From Bosea sp. NBC_00550 (GTDB lineage Bacteria; Pseudomonadota; Alphaproteobacteria; Rhizobiales; Beijerinckiaceae): 64,000 nucleotides of DNA. Below are positions 1,733 to 62,008 of the stretch, piece after piece. How positions within the stretch are numbered: the stretch's first letter is position 1; each line of letters opens with the position of its first letter. The stretch covers positions 4,678,501 through 4,742,500 of the forward strand of contig NZ_CP102772.1 of the NCBI RefSeq assembly GCF_026020075.1. Reading direction: 5' to 3'. The translations under genes and the position numbers were made by a program. Below the pieces are notes generated by a model. The model made no database searches. It saw nothing but the letters and a program-made list of their open reading frames with translations, and was not told where the DNA came from.

Positions 1733-3444
<1,712 letters not shown>

Positions 3445-11222: not shown

Positions 11223-11372
11223 CGTCATTCCGGGGCAGGCCGCAGGCCTGAGCCCGGAACCCAGAACCGATACCGTCATGAATTCGAGCGCTGGCCCGAC
11301 TGTGCCTTTTCGTGAAAACGGCATCGATTCTGGGTTCCGGGCTCTTCGCTGCAGCGAAGCCCCGGAATGACG
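11223..11372. repeat. Intergenic palindromic repeat, class C (long form)
   Basis: 150 bases between the outer arms CGTCATTCCGGGG and CCCCGGAATGACG. A second inverted pair lies inside: GGAACCCAGAA and TTCTGGGTTCC. It sits between the convergent dehydratase and kinase genes, and its hairpins could terminate both transcripts. Close relatives occur at 52123 and, inside cobG, at 58019. Confidence 0.85.
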
Positions 11373-52122: not shown

Positions 52123-52267
52123 CGTCATTCCGGGACGCAGCGAAGCTGCGGGCCCGGAACCCAGAACCGATGCCGCTTCTCGTGACGCCATGCGTCGCGC
52201 GCTTCCCTCTGTCGGACCTGCGGTTCTGGATTCCGGGCTCATGCCTACGGCATGTCCCGGAAAGACG
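52123..52267. repeat. Palindromic repeat, class C, between cobE and cobM
   Basis: Arms CGTCATTCCGGG and CCCGGAAAGACG (one mismatch to the usual ATGACG). It contains GGAACCCAGAACCGATGCCG as in the 11223 copy, and TGGATTCCGGGCTCATGCC. It sits in the 187-base gap within the cob operon. Confidence 0.85.
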
Positions 52268-54835: not shown

Positions 54836-55689
54836 ACGTAAGGCGCGGCGCCCTCGCGGGCGATCAGCCGCGTGCTCGATGCCCCGATCATCACCAGCGT
54901 CGCCATGTCGGCCGTGCCGGCTGTCGCGATCGCCTCAGCGAGCGTGAGAACGCGCAGGATCTCGTCCGGCCGCCCGACGGCACGGGCGAAGAGCACCGGC
55001 GTTTCAGCCGCGCGATGCTCCGCCGCCAGGTCCAGCGCCGCGCCGAGCTGCCAGGGCCGCGCCTTCGAGATCGGGTTGTACAGGCAGATCACGAAATCGG
55101 CGGCGAGGGCCGCCGTCAGGCGCGCCGTCACAACTTCCCAAGGCTTCAGGTTGTCCGAGAGCGAGAGCGCGCAGAAGTCGCCGCCGAGCGGTGCTCCAGC
55201 CCGCGCCGCCGCCGCCAGCATCGCGGTGATGCCGGGCTCCACCGTGATCGGGATGACCAGCCACTCCGCCGGCCCGGCTTCCAACGCCTCGAACACCGCC
55301 GCCGCCATGGCGAAGACGCCGGGATCGCCACCGGAGACGACCACGACCTTGCGGCCCTCAGCAGCCAGCTTCAGCGCGTGGGCGGCGCGCTCGACTTCGA
55401 CGCGATTATCGGAGGCATGCTTGGTCCGGCCGCTCCGTTCCGGCACGCGGTCGAGATAGGGGCCGTAGCCGATGAGATCGCTGGCGGCATCGAGCGCCGC
55501 CTGCGCGGCCGGAGTGATCCATTCGGGCGTGCCGGGGCCGAGGCCGACGATGGTGAGCGAGCCTGTCGCGGTCGTGGCCTTTTTCTCTGCCTTGTCCCGC
55601 TCCGCGCCGTCATCCCGGATCGGCGCGGCTGCGCCGCTTGTCCGGGATGACGGCGGCGGTGAAACAGAATGCGAAGGACCGTCGCTCAC
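54778..55689 (-). CDS. cobJ: Precorrin-3B C17-methyltransferase
   Basis: 303 residues from a GTG that overlaps the cobI stop (GTGA). The methylase proper begins near residue 44 (LTIVGLGPGTPEWITP) and contains YGPYLDRV, VVSGGDPGVFAMA and LYNPISKARPW. The first 43 residues are extra. Codons about 13-28 are a translated palindromic repeat (55608-55652), and no other in-frame start codon exists between it and the domain. The enzyme contracts the ring. Its 3' end overlaps cobK. Confidence 0.94.
   Translation of the reverse strand: MSDGPSHSVSPPPSSRTSGAAAPIRDDGAERDKAEKKATTATGSLTIVGLGPGTPEWITPAAQAALDAASDLIGYGPYLDRVPERSGRTKHASDNRVEVERAAHALKLAAEGRKVVVVSGGDPGVFAMAAAVFEALEAGPAEWLVIPITVEPGITAMLAAAARAGAPLGGDFCALSLSDNLKPWEVVTARLTAALAADFVICLYNPISKARPWQLGAALDLAAEHRAAETPVLFARAVGRPDEILRVLTLAEAIATAGTADMATLVMIGASSTRLIAREGAAPYVYTPRSVTKSPCATSQGRT
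55608..55652. repeat. Palindromic repeat (minimal class B) inside cobJ
   Basis: 45 bases, exactly 15 codons' worth: CGTCATCCCGGA at one end, TCCGGGATGACG at the other, with GGCGCGGCTGCGCC between. On the cobJ strand it is read in the phase that gives SSRTSG and PIRDDG. It lies just after the start codon region. Confidence 0.85.
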
Positions 55690-56430: not shown

Positions 56431-57063
56431 CTATTCCTTGTCCTGCGCCAGCGCATTGACGGCGGCAGCCGCCATGGCCGAGCCGCCGCGCCGGCCATGG
56501 ACGACGAGGAAGGGCACGCGTCCGTCCTTCGCCAGAGCCGCTTTCGATTCCGCCGCGCCGACGAAGCCGACGGGGATGCCGAGCACCGCAGCGGGCTTCG
56601 GCGCCCCGGCATCGAGCATTTCCAGCAGCCGGAACAGCGAGGTCGGCGCATTGCCGATCACGACGATGGAGCCAGCGAGCCGTGGCTTCAACAATTCCAT
56701 CGCGGCGGCGGAGCGGGTCGTGCCCATACTGGCCGCGAGCGCCGGGACCTGCGCGTCGTCCAGCGTGCAGATCACCTCGTTGCCGGCTGGCAGCCGGGCG
56801 CGCGTCACGCCGTTGGCGACCATCTTGGCGTCGCACAGGATCGGCGCGCCGCTCTTGAGCGCGGTGCGGGCGGCTTCGGCGAAGTCGACGGACATCTCGA
56901 CGTCACCGGGCAGGTCGGTCATGCCGCAGGCATGGATCATGCGCACGACGACGCGCTCGGCCGCGCCGCTGAAGCGGGCAAGATCAGCTTCCGCACGGAT
57001 GATCGCGAAGGAGCGCTCGTAGATCGCCGCGCCGTCCTGGATGTAATCGTAAGCCCTGCTCAA
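56431..57063 (-). CDS. cobH: Precorrin-8X methylmutase
   Basis: 210 residues from a TTG start that overlaps the cobG stop as TTGA. SRAYDYIQDGAAIYERSF, VVRMIHACGMTD (catalytic His about 45) and VGFVGAAESKAAL are CobH motifs. It moves the methyl group from C-11 to C-12 to give hydrogenobyrinate. Confidence 0.95.
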   Translation of the reverse strand: MSRAYDYIQDGAAIYERSFAIIRAEADLARFSGAAERVVVRMIHACGMTDLPGDVEMSVDFAEAARTALKSGAPILCDAKMVANGVTRARLPAGNEVICTLDDAQVPALAASMGTTRSAAAMELLKPRLAGSIVVIGNAPTSLFRLLEMLDAGAPKPAAVLGIPVGFVGAAESKAALAKDGRVPFLVVHGRRGGSAMAAAAVNALAQDKE

Positions 57064-58496
57064 CCGCGCGGTCCCGTTATACGCGCCGCATTGGTGAGCC
57101 GCGCGTGAATCTCTTCTCCGGGCTGCAATCGCGCCATGAGCGTCGAAAGGTCAAGCGTCGCGAGCGGCTTGTCCCGCGCCGTGCCGCCGAGCACGACGTC
57201 GTAACGTCCGTCTCGACCGACCAGGGTGAGGTCGGCCGCGGCCGGATGCGCGCAGGATTTTATGCAGCCCGAGACATGCAATGTGGCACCCTGAGCGAGC
57301 AAGTCGCTGGCGGCTTCGGCCAGTTTCGCGGCGTCCGCCATGGCCGGAGCTTCCGCCCGCGAGCAGGCCGGGCTCCCGGCACAGGCCTGCACCGACAGGC
57401 GCGGATCGTCGTCGCGCGTGATCAATCCGAGGTTGTTTGCGAGGGCAAGCATGGCCTCGGCATCGACATGGCTGAGATTGCGGAAGGCCAAACCCCGCCA
57501 GGGCGAGAACCGGATGTCGGCCTGCTGCGTTCCAACGCCGGCACCGAGCCTATCGAGCGTCGCCGCATCGCAGCGGCCAAATGGCAGGTTGACGAGCGCC
57601 GCGAAGCGATCACCCGCCAAGGCGAAAAGCCCGGCGCGTCGAGGGGCCGGGCGGGGCGCTGGGGCAGCCGTTTCAGCCAGTCCGCCGAGGCCGGACAATG
57701 CCGCGGCGGAGAGGTCGCGCAGGCGGCGGATGCGCTCCGGAGCGGCGCTGCGTGCCCGTGCGAACCCGCGCAGGACGGTTTCCACGATGGCGGGCGCATC
57801 GAGCTCCGAAACCGGGCCGCGCCAGATCGTGTCGGCGAGCCCGACGACCACCCGGCCGGATTCGACGGCGACGAGCCGTATGTCGCAGGCAAAGCCGTCC
57901 AGCGCCTGTCGACCGCCATCATCGACGATGACGCAGTGCTTTGCTGGCAGGCCGGCAATGCTTCGCACCCGTTCCTCGATCGCCGCCGATAAAGCCGCGG
58001 CGTCGATCAAGCCCTGTCCGTCATTCCGGGGCGCGGCAACGCCGAGAGCCTGCAAACCTTGAACTTCGTCGCCAATCGTCGGGGCGCTGGAATCGCCCGC
58101 GCTTCGTCGATCCCGGCTGTGTTCATGGATTCCGGGCTCTTCGCTGCGCGAAGCCCCGGAATGACGGCAGGCGCCTGCCAGCGGCGAAACCAGCGTCAGC
58201 CGCTGCGGGCCGTCGCCCTCATGCTCGTCGACGAGGCGTTCCGCCAGCAGCCGCTCGACCAGCATCGGATGGCTTGCCGGCGTCACGCCCCTGATCTGCA
58301 GATTGGCCCGAGCCGAGATTTCGACGAGCCCGTTGCCGTGCTCCGCCGCCAGCGCCGCGATCCGCCGCAATTGCGGGGGCGTCAGTTGCGCGCCGGGCGG
58401 ATGCAGGCGCACCAGCCAGCCATCGCCGGTCTCCATCGGCCTCAGCGTGCTCGGGCACCAGCCGCGCCGCAGCGCCTCTTTCGGGAGCGCGGTCAT
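57060..58496 (-). CDS. cobG: Precorrin-3B synthase (monooxygenase) with an internal translated repeat
   Basis: 478 residues from an ATG that overlaps cobN (ATGA). Two nitrite/sulfite-reductase-like half domains are followed by the Fe-S ligands in QACAGSPACSRA and VSGCIKSCAHP (about 390 and 438). Residues about 111-159 (from CRHSGASRSEE to APRNDG) are encoded by a palindromic repeat and have no place in CobG. The insert lies between the ferredoxin-like region and the SirHP segment, probably on a surface loop. It uses O2 and NADH to hydroxylate C-20. Confidence 0.93.
   Translation of the reverse strand: MTALPKEALRRGWCPSTLRPMETGDGWLVRLHPPGAQLTPPQLRRIAALAAEHGNGLVEISARANLQIRGVTPASHPMLVERLLAERLVDEHEGDGPQRLTLVSPLAGACRHSGASRSEEPGIHEHSRDRRSAGDSSAPTIGDEVQGLQALGVAAPRNDGQGLIDAAALSAAIEERVRSIAGLPAKHCVIVDDGGRQALDGFACDIRLVAVESGRVVVGLADTIWRGPVSELDAPAIVETVLRGFARARSAAPERIRRLRDLSAAALSGLGGLAETAAPAPRPAPRRAGLFALAGDRFAALVNLPFGRCDAATLDRLGAGVGTQQADIRFSPWRGLAFRNLSHVDAEAMLALANNLGLITRDDDPRLSVQACAGSPACSRAEAPAMADAAKLAEAASDLLAQGATLHVSGCIKSCAHPAAADLTLVGRDGRYDVVLGGTARDKPLATLDLSTLMARLQPGEEIHARLTNAARITGPRG
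58019..58166. repeat. Palindromic repeat, class C, inside cobG
   Basis: 148 bases bounded by CGTCATTCCGGGG and CCCCGGAATGACG. On the coding strand the left end is read as CGT CAT TCC. It resembles the intergenic copies at 11223 and 52123 in its ends and in ATTCCGGGCTCTTCGCTGC, but its middle differs. No stop codon occurs in the cobG frame. Confidence 0.87.
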
Positions 58497-61400
58497 TCCG
58501 CCGCCTCCCGCGCCAGGAAGGCCCCGACCGAATTGCGCCGGCTGGTCCACAGGCCGCGCCGCGCCGCCTCGGCGAGGCGCGCGCGGATCGAGGCGGCCGC
58601 CGGGGCATTGGCGGCTTCCAGCGCCGTCCAGATTTGCGGATCGGCGCAATAGGCCTGGAACACCGCATCGAACAGCCCGTCCGCGACCGCATCCGTACTC
58701 GCCGCGAAGACGAAGAGCGTATCGACCGCCTCGGCCAGCTCGGCCGCGCCGCGCCAGCCATGGGCGAGCTGCGAAGCGATCCAGCGCGGATGCGTCAGCC
58801 GGCCATGGACGATGCGGGCGATATCCTCGGCCAGCGTGCGCACCTTCGGTGCTTTTGGGTTCGCGCTGTCGAGGCTGTAGAGCACCGGGTCGGCGCCGAG
58901 CGCCTTGGCTGCGGCTGCGAGACCGCCGATGACATCGGCCGCGCTGCTCGCTTCCAGGATATCGCGCCCCGCGGTGTCGCTGACATGGATGAAGGCATCG
59001 GAGCTGCGGATGCGGTTGGCAAAGCCGGAATCGGCCGTCGCGAGGCCCTCAGGCCCGCCATAGGCATGGTCGGAAGCCGCGAGATAGGCGGCGCCCAGCT
59101 CTTCGCGATGCGTCCAGTCGCCATCCAACGCGCGGTCGGCCATCGCCGCGCCGTAGCGGCTGGGCGCGGCGCCGTAGATGCGCGCGCCGTGCTCACCGCG
59201 CCGGCGGGCGGCGGCGGGCGCGTTCCAGTCGTCGGGCTCGTCCAGCGCGGCCACCGCTCGCGTCGCCTGATCGATCAAGGCGATCTGGCCTGGAAAGGTG
59301 TCGCGGAAGGTGCCGGATATCCGCACGGTCACATCCAGACGCGGGAATGCGAGCTTCGGCTGCGGCACGATGCTGAAGCCGGTGACGCGGGTGGAGGCAT
59401 TGTCCCAGAGCGGCTCCACGCCCATCAGCGCCAGCGCATGGGCGATATCCTCTCCGCCCGAGCGCAATGTCGGCGAGGCCCAGAGATCCATCACGATCCG
59501 GCGCGGATAGTCGCCGTGATCCTGCAGGTGGCGCGACACCACCGCCTGCGCGGCCACCTTGCCGAGCCTTGCTGCGGCGCGCGTCGGAATGGCGCGCGGA
59601 TCGAGCGTCGAGAGATTGCGCCCGGTCGGCAGCACGTCGGGCCGGCCGCGATGCGGCGCGCCGGCCGGGCCGGGCGGCACGAAGCGGCCGTCGAGGGCGG
59701 CGAGCAGGTTCTCGCGCTCGTTGCGGGCCGAAGCTGGGTCGATCTCGGATTGCCCGAAGACATGCAAGCCGTCGCGGAAGGGCAATTCGGCGATGTCGCA
59801 GAGATGCGCGTCGAGCCGCGTCAGCGCCTCGTTCATCTCCATGTCGGGCATGACGCCGCAGGAGGCTGCCAGTCCGCTCGCCTCGGCACGGGCGCGAATC
59901 TCGGCAGCGACGATGTCGGCGCGACGCGGGTCGAGCACCTGCGCCTGCGAGAATTCCTCGACGAGATCGCGCAGCAGGGCGACTTCCCCTTCGGGCTTGG
60001 AATCCGCCAGCGGTGGTGGCAGATGGCCGAGGGTGATGGCCGAGAGCCGCCGCTTGGCCGGCGCGGCTTCGCCGGGATCGTCGACGACATAGGGGTAGAT
60101 CACCGGCAGCCCGCCGACGGCAAGGCGCGGCCAGCAGCCGGCGGAGAGCGCGACCGCCTTGCCCGGCAGCCATTCCGTGGTGCCGTGGGTGCCGAGATGG
60201 ATCAGCGCGTCGACGGCCTCGGCTTGGCGGAGTGCGAGGTAGAAGGCGAGATAGCCATGGCCGGGCGGTGCGTCGGGGTCGTGATAGCGCGCCTTGCGGT
60301 CTGGCGTGGCGTCGCGCGGCGGCTGCAATGCGACAGTGAGCTTGCCGTAGCGCACGGCGCGGAAGCGGAAAGCGCCGTCGCGGCAGGTCGGATCGGCCTC
60401 GGGCGCGCCATGGCTCGCCAGAAGAGCCTCGCGCGCTGTGGCGGGGATGGTGGCGAGGCAGTCGCGATAGCCGGCAAGCGAGAGGCTCAGCTCGGCCGGG
60501 CCTGCGGTAAGGGCTGCCATCAAGCTGGCCCCCTCATCCAAATCTGCGCTGTCATCCCGGACAAGCCGCGATAGCGGCGCCGATCCGGGATTCCGGGTCT
60601 CCCTCTGGTCGCCCGGGATGACCGAGGAGGGGATATCGACGGAATACCCCGCTCCGGCCAGCAGCTTCCGGATCGCCGTCACGCTGGCGGGCGTGTCCAG
60701 GCCGACGGCGAAGCCGGCCCGCCCGCCGCGAGCAGGATAATCGGACATCACCAACGCCAGCCTGCGCTCTGCCGGTGGCTTCCGTGCCAGCGCAACCCAG
60801 CCGGCAGCGAGATCGGCGAGCGCGGCGATGCCCTCCGCGTGGGGCTCGAGCCGGCGCGTGGCGAGGCCGGTCGCCGGATCGGTCGCCTCCGCCTTAAAGG
60901 CGACGGGGATAGCGCCGATGCGGCCGTCGAATTCCGTTAGCGCCACCTGCATGGCGAGATCGGCAGCCGAGAGGCCACGCGGCGATGCGTCCCAGGCCTC
61001 GCGTGGGCTGCCGACCGGCACGGCCTGCAGGATCGGACAGGCGGCGGCATCGAGCACGAAGTCGTCGCCCTCGCGCGCCGAGAAGGCTGTGGTGGTGACG
61101 ATCAGCGCCGGCTTGCGCAGTGCGATCAGTGTCGCGAGCTCGGCTGTAACGGCCGGGTCCTTCAGGCTCGTCAGCGCGAGCGGCAGTGCCGCCAGGCCGC
61201 GGCCGGCCAGTTCAGCGGCGATGGCCTCGCCCATGGCGGTGTCGCCCGCCGCGACGCCGGAGCGGTAGAGCAGGATCGGGACCAGCGGCCGGTCGGCCGG
61301 GATTGCGGCGAGCGCGTCCCGCCAAGGCAGGGGCGCACCGCCTTCGCTCAATGCGAAGAAGGATGGCAGGGCGATGGGTGCAAGGTCGGCGGCGTCCCGC

Positions 61401-62008
61401 CGGCCCTCATCCGCCTGCCGGCACCTTCTCCCCCGAGGGGAGAAGGGCGCGATTGCCGCCGCTTCATCCTTCTCCCCCCGGGGGAGAAGGTGGCCCGGCG
61501 AAGCCGGGTCGGATGAGGGTCGAAGCGCCGTCAGATATCCTTCGATCCGCCTCAGCAGCCGGCGCATGTTCTCGGCGCCGCCGCCGGCCTGGAAATAGGC
61601 CAGAAGCCCTGCCGCAAGCTCCGCCGGCACCGTCGCATACTCGGTCAGCCGCGGATCGGCACGCTCGTCGCCCGGCAGGATCGCGAGCGGAATGTCTTGC
61701 TCGCGGCAGGCCGCGCCCAGCCGCTCGATACCGTAACGCCAGTAATCGAGCCCGCCGAGGCAGCGCACCAGCACGAAGCGGCACTGCGCCGCGGTCTTCT
61801 CGATCAGGAAATCGACGGAGAGCGGGTGCTTCAGCCGCCGCAGCGGCGCGAGCCGCAGCGACAGGTTGCTGTCACCTGCCGCCACCGCCAGCGCCGAAAG
61901 GTCGCTGTCGGTGAAGGAGAGCACGAGCAAATCTCCCGGCGGCAGGGCGAGATCGACGGCGTCCCCGCCGTCGTCGAGCCTGATCTCGCTGGTCGGGAGG
62001 AGGTGCAT
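58493..62008 (-). CDS. cobN: Cobaltochelatase large subunit CobN with two internal translated repeats
   Basis: 1171 residues of the CobN/magnesium chelatase H family, with LIHLGTHGTTEWLPGK, YPYVVDDPGEAAPAKRR and ADRALDGDWTHREEL as landmarks. It uses ATP with CobS and CobT to insert cobalt into hydrogenobyrinate a,c-diamide. Residues about 164-202 come from a CCCTCATCCG-type palindrome and residues 463-486 from a CGTCAT-type palindrome; both are read through. Without them the protein would be about 1110 residues, shorter than the roughly 1250 usual for CobN. cobS and cobT are not in the window. Confidence 0.94.
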   Translation of the reverse strand: MHLLPTSEIRLDDGGDAVDLALPPGDLLVLSFTDSDLSALAVAAGDSNLSLRLAPLRRLKHPLSVDFLIEKTAAQCRFVLVRCLGGLDYWRYGIERLGAACREQDIPLAILPGDERADPRLTEYATVPAELAAGLLAYFQAGGGAENMRRLLRRIEGYLTALRPSSDPASPGHLLPRGEKDEAAAIAPFSPRGRRCRQADEGRRDAADLAPIALPSFFALSEGGAPLPWRDALAAIPADRPLVPILLYRSGVAAGDTAMGEAIAAELAGRGLAALPLALTSLKDPAVTAELATLIALRKPALIVTTTAFSAREGDDFVLDAAACPILQAVPVGSPREAWDASPRGLSAADLAMQVALTEFDGRIGAIPVAFKAEATDPATGLATRRLEPHAEGIAALADLAAGWVALARKPPAERRLALVMSDYPARGGRAGFAVGLDTPASVTAIRKLLAGAGYSVDIPSSVIPGDQRETRNPGSAPLSRLVRDDSADLDEGASLMAALTAGPAELSLSLAGYRDCLATIPATAREALLASHGAPEADPTCRDGAFRFRAVRYGKLTVALQPPRDATPDRKARYHDPDAPPGHGYLAFYLALRQAEAVDALIHLGTHGTTEWLPGKAVALSAGCWPRLAVGGLPVIYPYVVDDPGEAAPAKRRLSAITLGHLPPPLADSKPEGEVALLRDLVEEFSQAQVLDPRRADIVAAEIRARAEASGLAASCGVMPDMEMNEALTRLDAHLCDIAELPFRDGLHVFGQSEIDPASARNERENLLAALDGRFVPPGPAGAPHRGRPDVLPTGRNLSTLDPRAIPTRAAARLGKVAAQAVVSRHLQDHGDYPRRIVMDLWASPTLRSGGEDIAHALALMGVEPLWDNASTRVTGFSIVPQPKLAFPRLDVTVRISGTFRDTFPGQIALIDQATRAVAALDEPDDWNAPAAARRRGEHGARIYGAAPSRYGAAMADRALDGDWTHREELGAAYLAASDHAYGGPEGLATADSGFANRIRSSDAFIHVSDTAGRDILEASSAADVIGGLAAAAKALGADPVLYSLDSANPKAPKVRTLAEDIARIVHGRLTHPRWIASQLAHGWRGAAELAEAVDTLFVFAASTDAVADGLFDAVFQAYCADPQIWTALEAANAPAAASIRARLAEAARRGLWTSRRNSVGAFLAREAAE
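60551..60622. repeat. Palindromic repeat, class B, inside cobN
   Basis: 72 bases from GTCATCCCGG to CCGGGATGAC. They coincide exactly with codons 463-486 of cobN, starting GTC ATC CCG and ending GAT GAC. The encoded 24 residues (VIPGDQRETR...RLVRDD) match the consensus of intergenic copies if those are translated in the same phase. Confidence 0.88.
61404..61519. repeat. Palindromic repeat of a second family inside cobN
   Basis: Bounded by CCCTCATCCG and CGGATGAGGG, with inner hairpins CCTTCTCCCCCCGGGGGAGAAGG and CTTCTCCCCCGAGGGGAGAAG and GCCCGGCGAAGCCGGG. It is unrelated to the CGTCAT family. In cobN it encodes about 39 residues (GHLLPRGEK, SPRGRRCRQADEGR). Confidence 0.86.

Follow-up and report, generated by a model that had tools for sequence, protein, structure and literature searches.

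The window, a stretch of 64,000 nucleotides of contig NZ_CP102772.1 of Bosea sp. NBC_00550, contains a cob region in which palindromic repeats lie inside cobG and cobN. Gene names in this region were tested with NCBIfam and Pfam. The relevant features, by position in the window, are:

57063–58496, minus strand: cobG, precorrin-3B synthase of 478 aa (TIGR02435; Pfam NIR_SIR_ferr; sulfite/nitrite reductase fold), open throughout.
58019–58166, minus strand: palindromic element, a head-to-head dimer of CGTC-tagged REP-type units, equivalent to CobG residues 111–159 and missing in most Bosea orthologues.
58121–58166, minus strand: better preserved unit of this element, read from the sequence as CGTC, a stem ATTCCGGG...CCCGGAAT and a CCA tail, with up to 98% identity to dispersed copies in its own genome.
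58019–58064, plus strand: second, worn unit, whose sequence retains the tag and the first stem arm, with a diverged second arm.
58493–62008, minus strand: cobN, cobaltochelatase subunit of 1171 aa (NF008973, TIGR02257), with two further translated repeats.
60545–60622, minus strand: CGTC-type palindrome VIPGDQRETRNPGSAPLSRLVRDDSA at CobN site 3 (residues 463–488), missing or different in relatives.
61385–61513, minus strand: palindrome of another type at CobN site 2 (residues 166–208), with hairpin arms at 61422–61446 and 61468–61492 that are 96% complementary.
55608–55660, no strand assigned: CGTC-type repeat at the 5' end of the cobJ ORF, in which family matches start at residue 42–45.
52123–52267, no strand assigned: another dimer of the cobG element family, with no convincing gene across it.
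11223–11372, no strand assigned: copy of the cobG element family, with no spanning ORF of at least 30 codons on both sides.

The cobG gene runs on the minus strand from an ATG at 58496 to a last sense codon ending at 57063, and its product scores 235.3 bits against the TIGR02435 CobG profile (cut-off 234.8). An earlier note, made from the sequence of the window alone, had described a palindromic repeat in this gene that adds about 49 residues with no stop or loss of frame, belongs to a genome-wide CGTCAT...ATGACG family, and leaves the downstream Fe-S cysteines intact. These observations were all confirmed. The element is 148 bp long, starting with CGTC at 58019 and ending with GACG at 58166, and supplies residues 111–159 (RHSGASRSEEPG...VAAPRND) within a reading frame that stays open over all 478 codons. 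The four Fe-S cysteines (372, 378, 411, and 415) are invariant in both of our alignments (A1 and A2), and all 56 CobG rows examined show the cysteine pattern.

The architecture of the element largely follows that of the CGTC-tagged REPs, which, in the accessible text of Di Nocera 2013, come mainly from alphaproteobacteria and include RPE-4 and RPE-6 of Rickettsia conorii (PMC3733652). As described there, these repeats share with the element a CGTC tag (present at both of its outer ends), a stem of 8–9 bp starting with AT (ATTCCGGG/CCCGGAAT in the better unit, the other being worn), a CCA tail (found in the better unit only, GGAATCCATG), head-to-head dimers in many copies, a bias toward alphaproteobacteria, and some intragenic copies (PMC3733652). 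The loop differs: 18 nt separate the 8-bp arms of the better unit, compared with 4–5 nt in the published REPs, and we therefore call the element CGTC-type and do not place it in CGTC-1 to CGTC-4; other loops are described in the same source for Bradyrhizobium CGTC-1. The 47-nt arms of the whole element (58018–58064 and 58121–58167) are 74% complementary. Folding the CobG linker with its insert as RNA gave z = −7.2 relative to 60 shuffles, so the palindrome is not due to chance. Four of the six reading frames across the element are open. No direct repeat of 3–9 bases was found near its ends at the offsets tried.

Scoring the best 40 of 174 first-look candidates revealed at least 69 matches at at least 40 places in the 6.27-Mb genome, the cobG element included. 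These 40 places comprise the cobG element, the copy at 11223–11372, and 38 fetched loci; the latter yielded 40 match clusters, 28 of them measuring 140–152 bp, the size of a dimer. An ORF extending 50 codons past both sides was present at 14 of the 40 clusters and absent from 26, in a test that covers the best-scored places and misses copies lying fewer than 50 codons from a gene end. A single ORF of the 14 (at L185) looked coding on both flanks, and it has no Pfam family match; the element at L216 precedes the first GH31-type domain. Three of the 11 REP-like elements checked in the window are intragenic (one in cobG, two in cobN), and one more lies at the beginning of the cobJ ORF and may precede the true cobJ start, which is possibly further in. 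A profile search for Y1_Tnp (PF01797) found none in this genome; the same search was positive in 5 of 14 control genomes.

The main point of our analysis was beyond the sight of the earlier note: the same CobG linker has been hit repeatedly by different repeats. Our sample included 67 Bosea genomes, 61 of which match the first 200 CobG residues at E ≤ 1e-6; three of these (G026, G043, and G046) contain distant relative matches only and were excluded, leaving 58 CobG genes. The linker usually comprises about 31 residues, from an LTL motif to LPxK. At least 20 extra residues were present in 14 of the 58 proteins and a recognizable scar in two (G028 and G066, which retain a short class A piece), while 42 have neither. 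The alignment with orthologues, which the earlier note had proposed as a check, bore out its description of an insert. Five linkers that our motif script missed (G037, G041, and G059) or over-ran (G014 and G049) were read by eye and contain no insert. Across the 56 alignable CobG rows (G019 and G035 excluded), the linker is the only position with an insert of 8 aa or more. All 12 fully assembled insert-bearing cobG genes keep a single frame over their whole length. Of the other two, the G019 gene is interrupted within the insert, leaving a class D end on each of two contigs (L169 and L170), as expected of a repeat, and the G035 gene contains a stretch of N followed by a frame change.

The inserts belong to five classes: A (HSGASRSE...PRND; G000, G048, and G065), B (LGLDPSIS; G023, G024, and G055, with the end PPEND in G023 and G055), C (HCEERSDEAI or close; G009, G032, and G035, with DCFASLAMT in G009 and G032), D (ACGGEGRGG or close, ending in PPQAGG or close; G004, G010, G019, and G039), and E (HPEERRRRVSKDG; G006). 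A CGTC or TGTC tag marks one or both DNA ends in at least one genome for each of classes A, B, and C, and for neither D nor E. Judging from sequence matches, all five classes are dispersed repeats: each of the 14 genomes contains at least 22 matches to the class it carries (56–69 for A, 41–44 for B, 26–70 for C, 22–92 for D, and 79 for E). In other genomes, at E ≤ 0.001, class A matched in 17 of 18, classes B, C, and E in 19 of 19, and class D in 11 of 19; these counts are of matches, with up to 40 candidates scored per genome. At the same threshold and depth, class D had no match in the NBC_00550 genome. Predicted hairpins were strong for all three inserts of class A, for two of three tested in class D, and for that of class E (z from −6.0 to −9.3); for all three of class B and one of class C, folding was barely better than in shuffled sequences (z from −1.0 to −2.1).

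We then asked how many events these inserts represent on a tree of CobG and CobN built by a quick method without the insert columns (57 rows, 1461 columns; G035 left out, and G001 and G008 trimmed to 425 aa). Counting well-supported branches only, class A requires three changes and class D four, and classes B and C could each have a single origin. Grouping the 13 insert-bearing rows into one clade was rejected (p-AU 1.1e-4), as were single clades of class A (5.8e-44), of class D (3.5e-8), and of G000 and G065 alone (2.1e-6); a single class B clade was not rejected (0.19). Scoring scars as absence, presence and absence alone demand at least 11 changes, each a gain or a loss. Since the classes differ in sequence, they are not accounted for by one ancestral insert. 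Classes A, C, and D occur together with class A scars within one tight clade (G009, G019, G028, G032, G065, and G066; SH-aLRT 100).

CobN has three such sites. At least 20 residues fill the insert columns in 11 of 52 rows at site 1, 25 of 52 at site 2, and 31 of 54 at site 3. The sites occupied in the window at 60545–60622 and 61385–61513 hold different repeats in other Bosea. At site 2 of G001, G008, G020, and G033 (L144, L147, L145, and L146, respectively), one or two copies of a repeat, ISGLPEMGNPECQSRQQPTL, are nested in the first element. At site 1 of G003, G029, and G058, the SWSGLSRPS element has a GC-rich element inside it or abutting it; in G029 (L153), the nested insert puts the N-terminal part out of frame with the rest, possibly reflecting a damaged gene or a sequencing error. 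Comparing neighboring genes at 32 loci from named records and in the window (inserts of at least 14 aa, loci with at least 80% of the gene), we found inserts in 9 of 32 CobG, all at reference residues 104–114, and in 21 of 29 CobN (20 without L056, an alignment slip at 264; further slips affect L054 at 258 and L085 at 372–386). CobJ has inserts in 7 of 31, N-terminal and ahead of the start of the family match, and DUF1636 has two doubtful ones in 22. None of this size was found in CobL (0/28), CobK (0/31), CobI (0/32), CobH (0/32), or CobW (0/25). Rfam matches in the cob region were microRNA-like, below the gathering score, and all on the CobN site 2 hairpin, and were taken as chance. Elsewhere in the window, a 5_ureB_sRNA match of 117 bits (1884–2173, minus strand) is perhaps mere conservation of a urease gene.

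In a wider sample, a CobG match was found in 170 of 248 genomes of the family, and a protein collection provided at least 486 CobG relatives (7998 candidates scored). Among the best 120 of these 486, the script cut 117 linkers, 41 of them of at least 33 residues, and the remaining three had no insert when read; the 41 include scars such as HPSGASRSD and GPRENDDGG. Scars are present in P0061, P0105, P0112, and P0113. Eight loci from other genera, mostly picked for their split-looking matches, had no insert at the CobG linker. Six of them (L217, L218, L219, L220, L221, and L223) have extra CobG stretches further on, some resembling GC-rich repeats (GEGGSAEPRRMGRAGRAFGEAE).

The substitution pattern indicates that cobG is under purifying selection. 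Outside the linker, pN/pS of the NBC_00550 gene ranges from 0.28 to 0.48 against 11 relatives, and from 0.28 to 0.33 against the seven near ones (G012, G022, G023, G024, G030, G055, and G063); downstream of the insert, it is 0.32–0.50. Two pairs without inserts gave slightly lower values, 0.21 and 0.28. For three insert pairs, pN/pS inside the linker was 0.39, 0.64, and 1.08, compared with 0.29, 0.29, and 0.42 outside it; the numbers are small, and the difference is as expected of a loosely constrained loop. An AlphaFold model of CobG (49 sequences; mean pLDDT 76.7, pTM 0.77) matches NirA (Foldseek E 2.4e-16) and the sulfite reductase haemoprotein (E 1.5e-13). The earlier note had also proposed mapping the insert on a model of this fold: residues 110–159, which contain the insert, have pLDDT below 50, as do 1–12 and 375–383, the latter near cysteine 378. 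The insert is thus predicted to form a disordered loop in a sulfite-reductase-type fold.

We consider it highly probable that REP-type repeats insert in frame into CobG, are tolerated and translated as a disordered loop in a working enzyme, and are later trimmed or replaced, and that this has recurred within Bosea. A mobile or formerly mobile palindrome would land, with the frame preserved, in the linker that joins the first ferredoxin-like half-domain to the remainder of the enzyme; because extra residues are tolerated there, insertions that keep the frame and bring no stop would survive, and selection may act as a mere filter. The peptide would be translated and the enzyme would keep working, and the insert would later be cut down to a scar or exchanged for another repeat. 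The same process would account for five repeat classes at the CobG linker and, likewise, for the inserts at the three CobN sites. With four of six frames open and a third of lengths fitting, a random insertion would keep the frame in about 2/9 of cases, compared with 12 of 12 observed; as the 12 are partly non-independent and frame openness was computed for the NBC_00550 element only, this comparison is a guide, not a test, pointing to selection on the frame. Several observations count against this explanation. The cobG element family is rarely inside genes in its own genome, the pN/pS of its cobG slightly exceeds that of pairs without inserts, the G029 CobN insert is out of frame, and the model has low pLDDT at 1–12 and 375–383 as well. 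A long hairpin in the message could lower expression or attract RNase III, and the possible single origins of classes B and C and the weak folds of the B inserts and one C insert also tell against it.

The most serious rival, which we nevertheless regard as unlikely, is that repeats prefer to enter or recombine with resident repeats, such that a first insertion creates a lasting target where classes are swapped by nesting and deletion. The nested repeats at CobN sites 1 and 2 fit this, as does the tight clade holding three classes and scars, and in G009 and G032 the class C linker closes with PPSSPAG, which by eye is similar to the end of class D. However, insert lineages often have insert-free neighbors on the tree, so first insertions at a plain linker must recur too, and direct repeats of three or more bases are absent near the ends of the NBC_00550 element. 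Given the nesting and turnover, occupied sites may attract further repeats. An effect at the RNA level, where a hairpin in the cob message would tune cobG and cobN expression with the peptide as a by-product, seems improbable. REPs are thought to act in RNA, according to the accessible text of PMC3733652, and the strong hairpins of classes A, D, and E agree with such a role, but for the three inserts of class B and one of class C the fold is hardly stronger than in shuffled sequences, 42 of 58 genes do without insert or scar, and the frame is kept in every assembled case.

Decay of CobG, with the insert as a mark of disuse, is very unlikely. In its favor, the pN/pS values of the NBC_00550 gene lie at or above those of the insert-free pairs. 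Against it, the reading frame is open here and in the 12 assembled insert-bearing genes, the cysteines are kept, the part following the insert is constrained, and the genome has no CobZ above the cut-off that could replace CobG, only sub-cut-off matches of a kind also found in 11 of 14 control genomes. Interdomain linkers vary in length anyway, yet an ordinary variable linker or assembly artefact of non-repeat origin is barely credible: the inserts match dispersed repeats of the same genomes, which contradicts it, and five of the 14 carriers (G000, G009, G010, G024, and G048) are assemblies of one to three contigs.

Translated palindromes are a known kind of element. Their model is the RPE of Rickettsia, which, in the accessible parts of PMC2229807 and PMC10969869, is found in frame in conserved enzymes, with an RPE-bearing Gmk both translated and active. 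Palindromes of about 105–150 bp, several families, and both intergenic and in-frame enzyme copies are common to the two cases (PMC2229807; PMC10969869), and the cobG element is itself an in-frame insertion in a conserved gene. The two differ in genus, our likeness being drawn from descriptions of RPEs, in the mostly extragenic location of copies in the NBC_00550 genome, and in the reuse of one linker by several families in Bosea. The earlier note's comparison with RPEs therefore stands for the translatable in-frame palindrome, the orthologues mostly lacking it, and the purifying selection. Its suggestion that such elements are not an accepted phenomenon in these bacteria is not supported: CGTC and GTAG REPs within genes are known, and the accessible text of PMC3733652 describes CGTC REPs as mainly alphaproteobacterial and lists intragenic REPs for several species, with Bosea unnamed in the main text. 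The same text provides the nearest case of recurrence at one site, different REPs at about the same position of recB in two Xanthomonas species. RU-1, RU-2, and RU-3 of enterobacteria are reportedly also small repeats with ORFs inside genes, but are other repeats from another bacterial group (PMC2759123). The accessible text of the Bosea sp. PAMC26642 paper contains neither 'palindromic' nor 'cobG' (PMC11804256), and that of a Bradyrhizobium comparison has cobG only in a gene list (PMC3899966). Among the open-access papers listed by our searches, we found no description of recurrent insertion at one linker in Bosea or cobG, nor of several families reusing a single linker in the same genus, accompanied by nesting and decay.

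A broader proposal, which we offer tentatively and hold to be somewhat doubtful, is that a small number of B12-enzyme linkers in a single genus serve as standing insertion sites. Different palindromes would keep entering them, some landing inside others, and would be translated and pared down to new linker residues; this would happen in at least one genome lacking a Y1-type REP transposase. If true, repeat turnover would go on supplying new protein sequence at fixed positions. The study of protein-coding palindromes, best known from Rickettsia, is extended here to Bosea, with 67 genomes, some of named strains, in which empty sites, several insert classes, nested inserts, and scars can be aligned side by side. 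In this genus, it can be tested whether the repeats are passengers that the host tolerates or a lasting supply of new protein loops.
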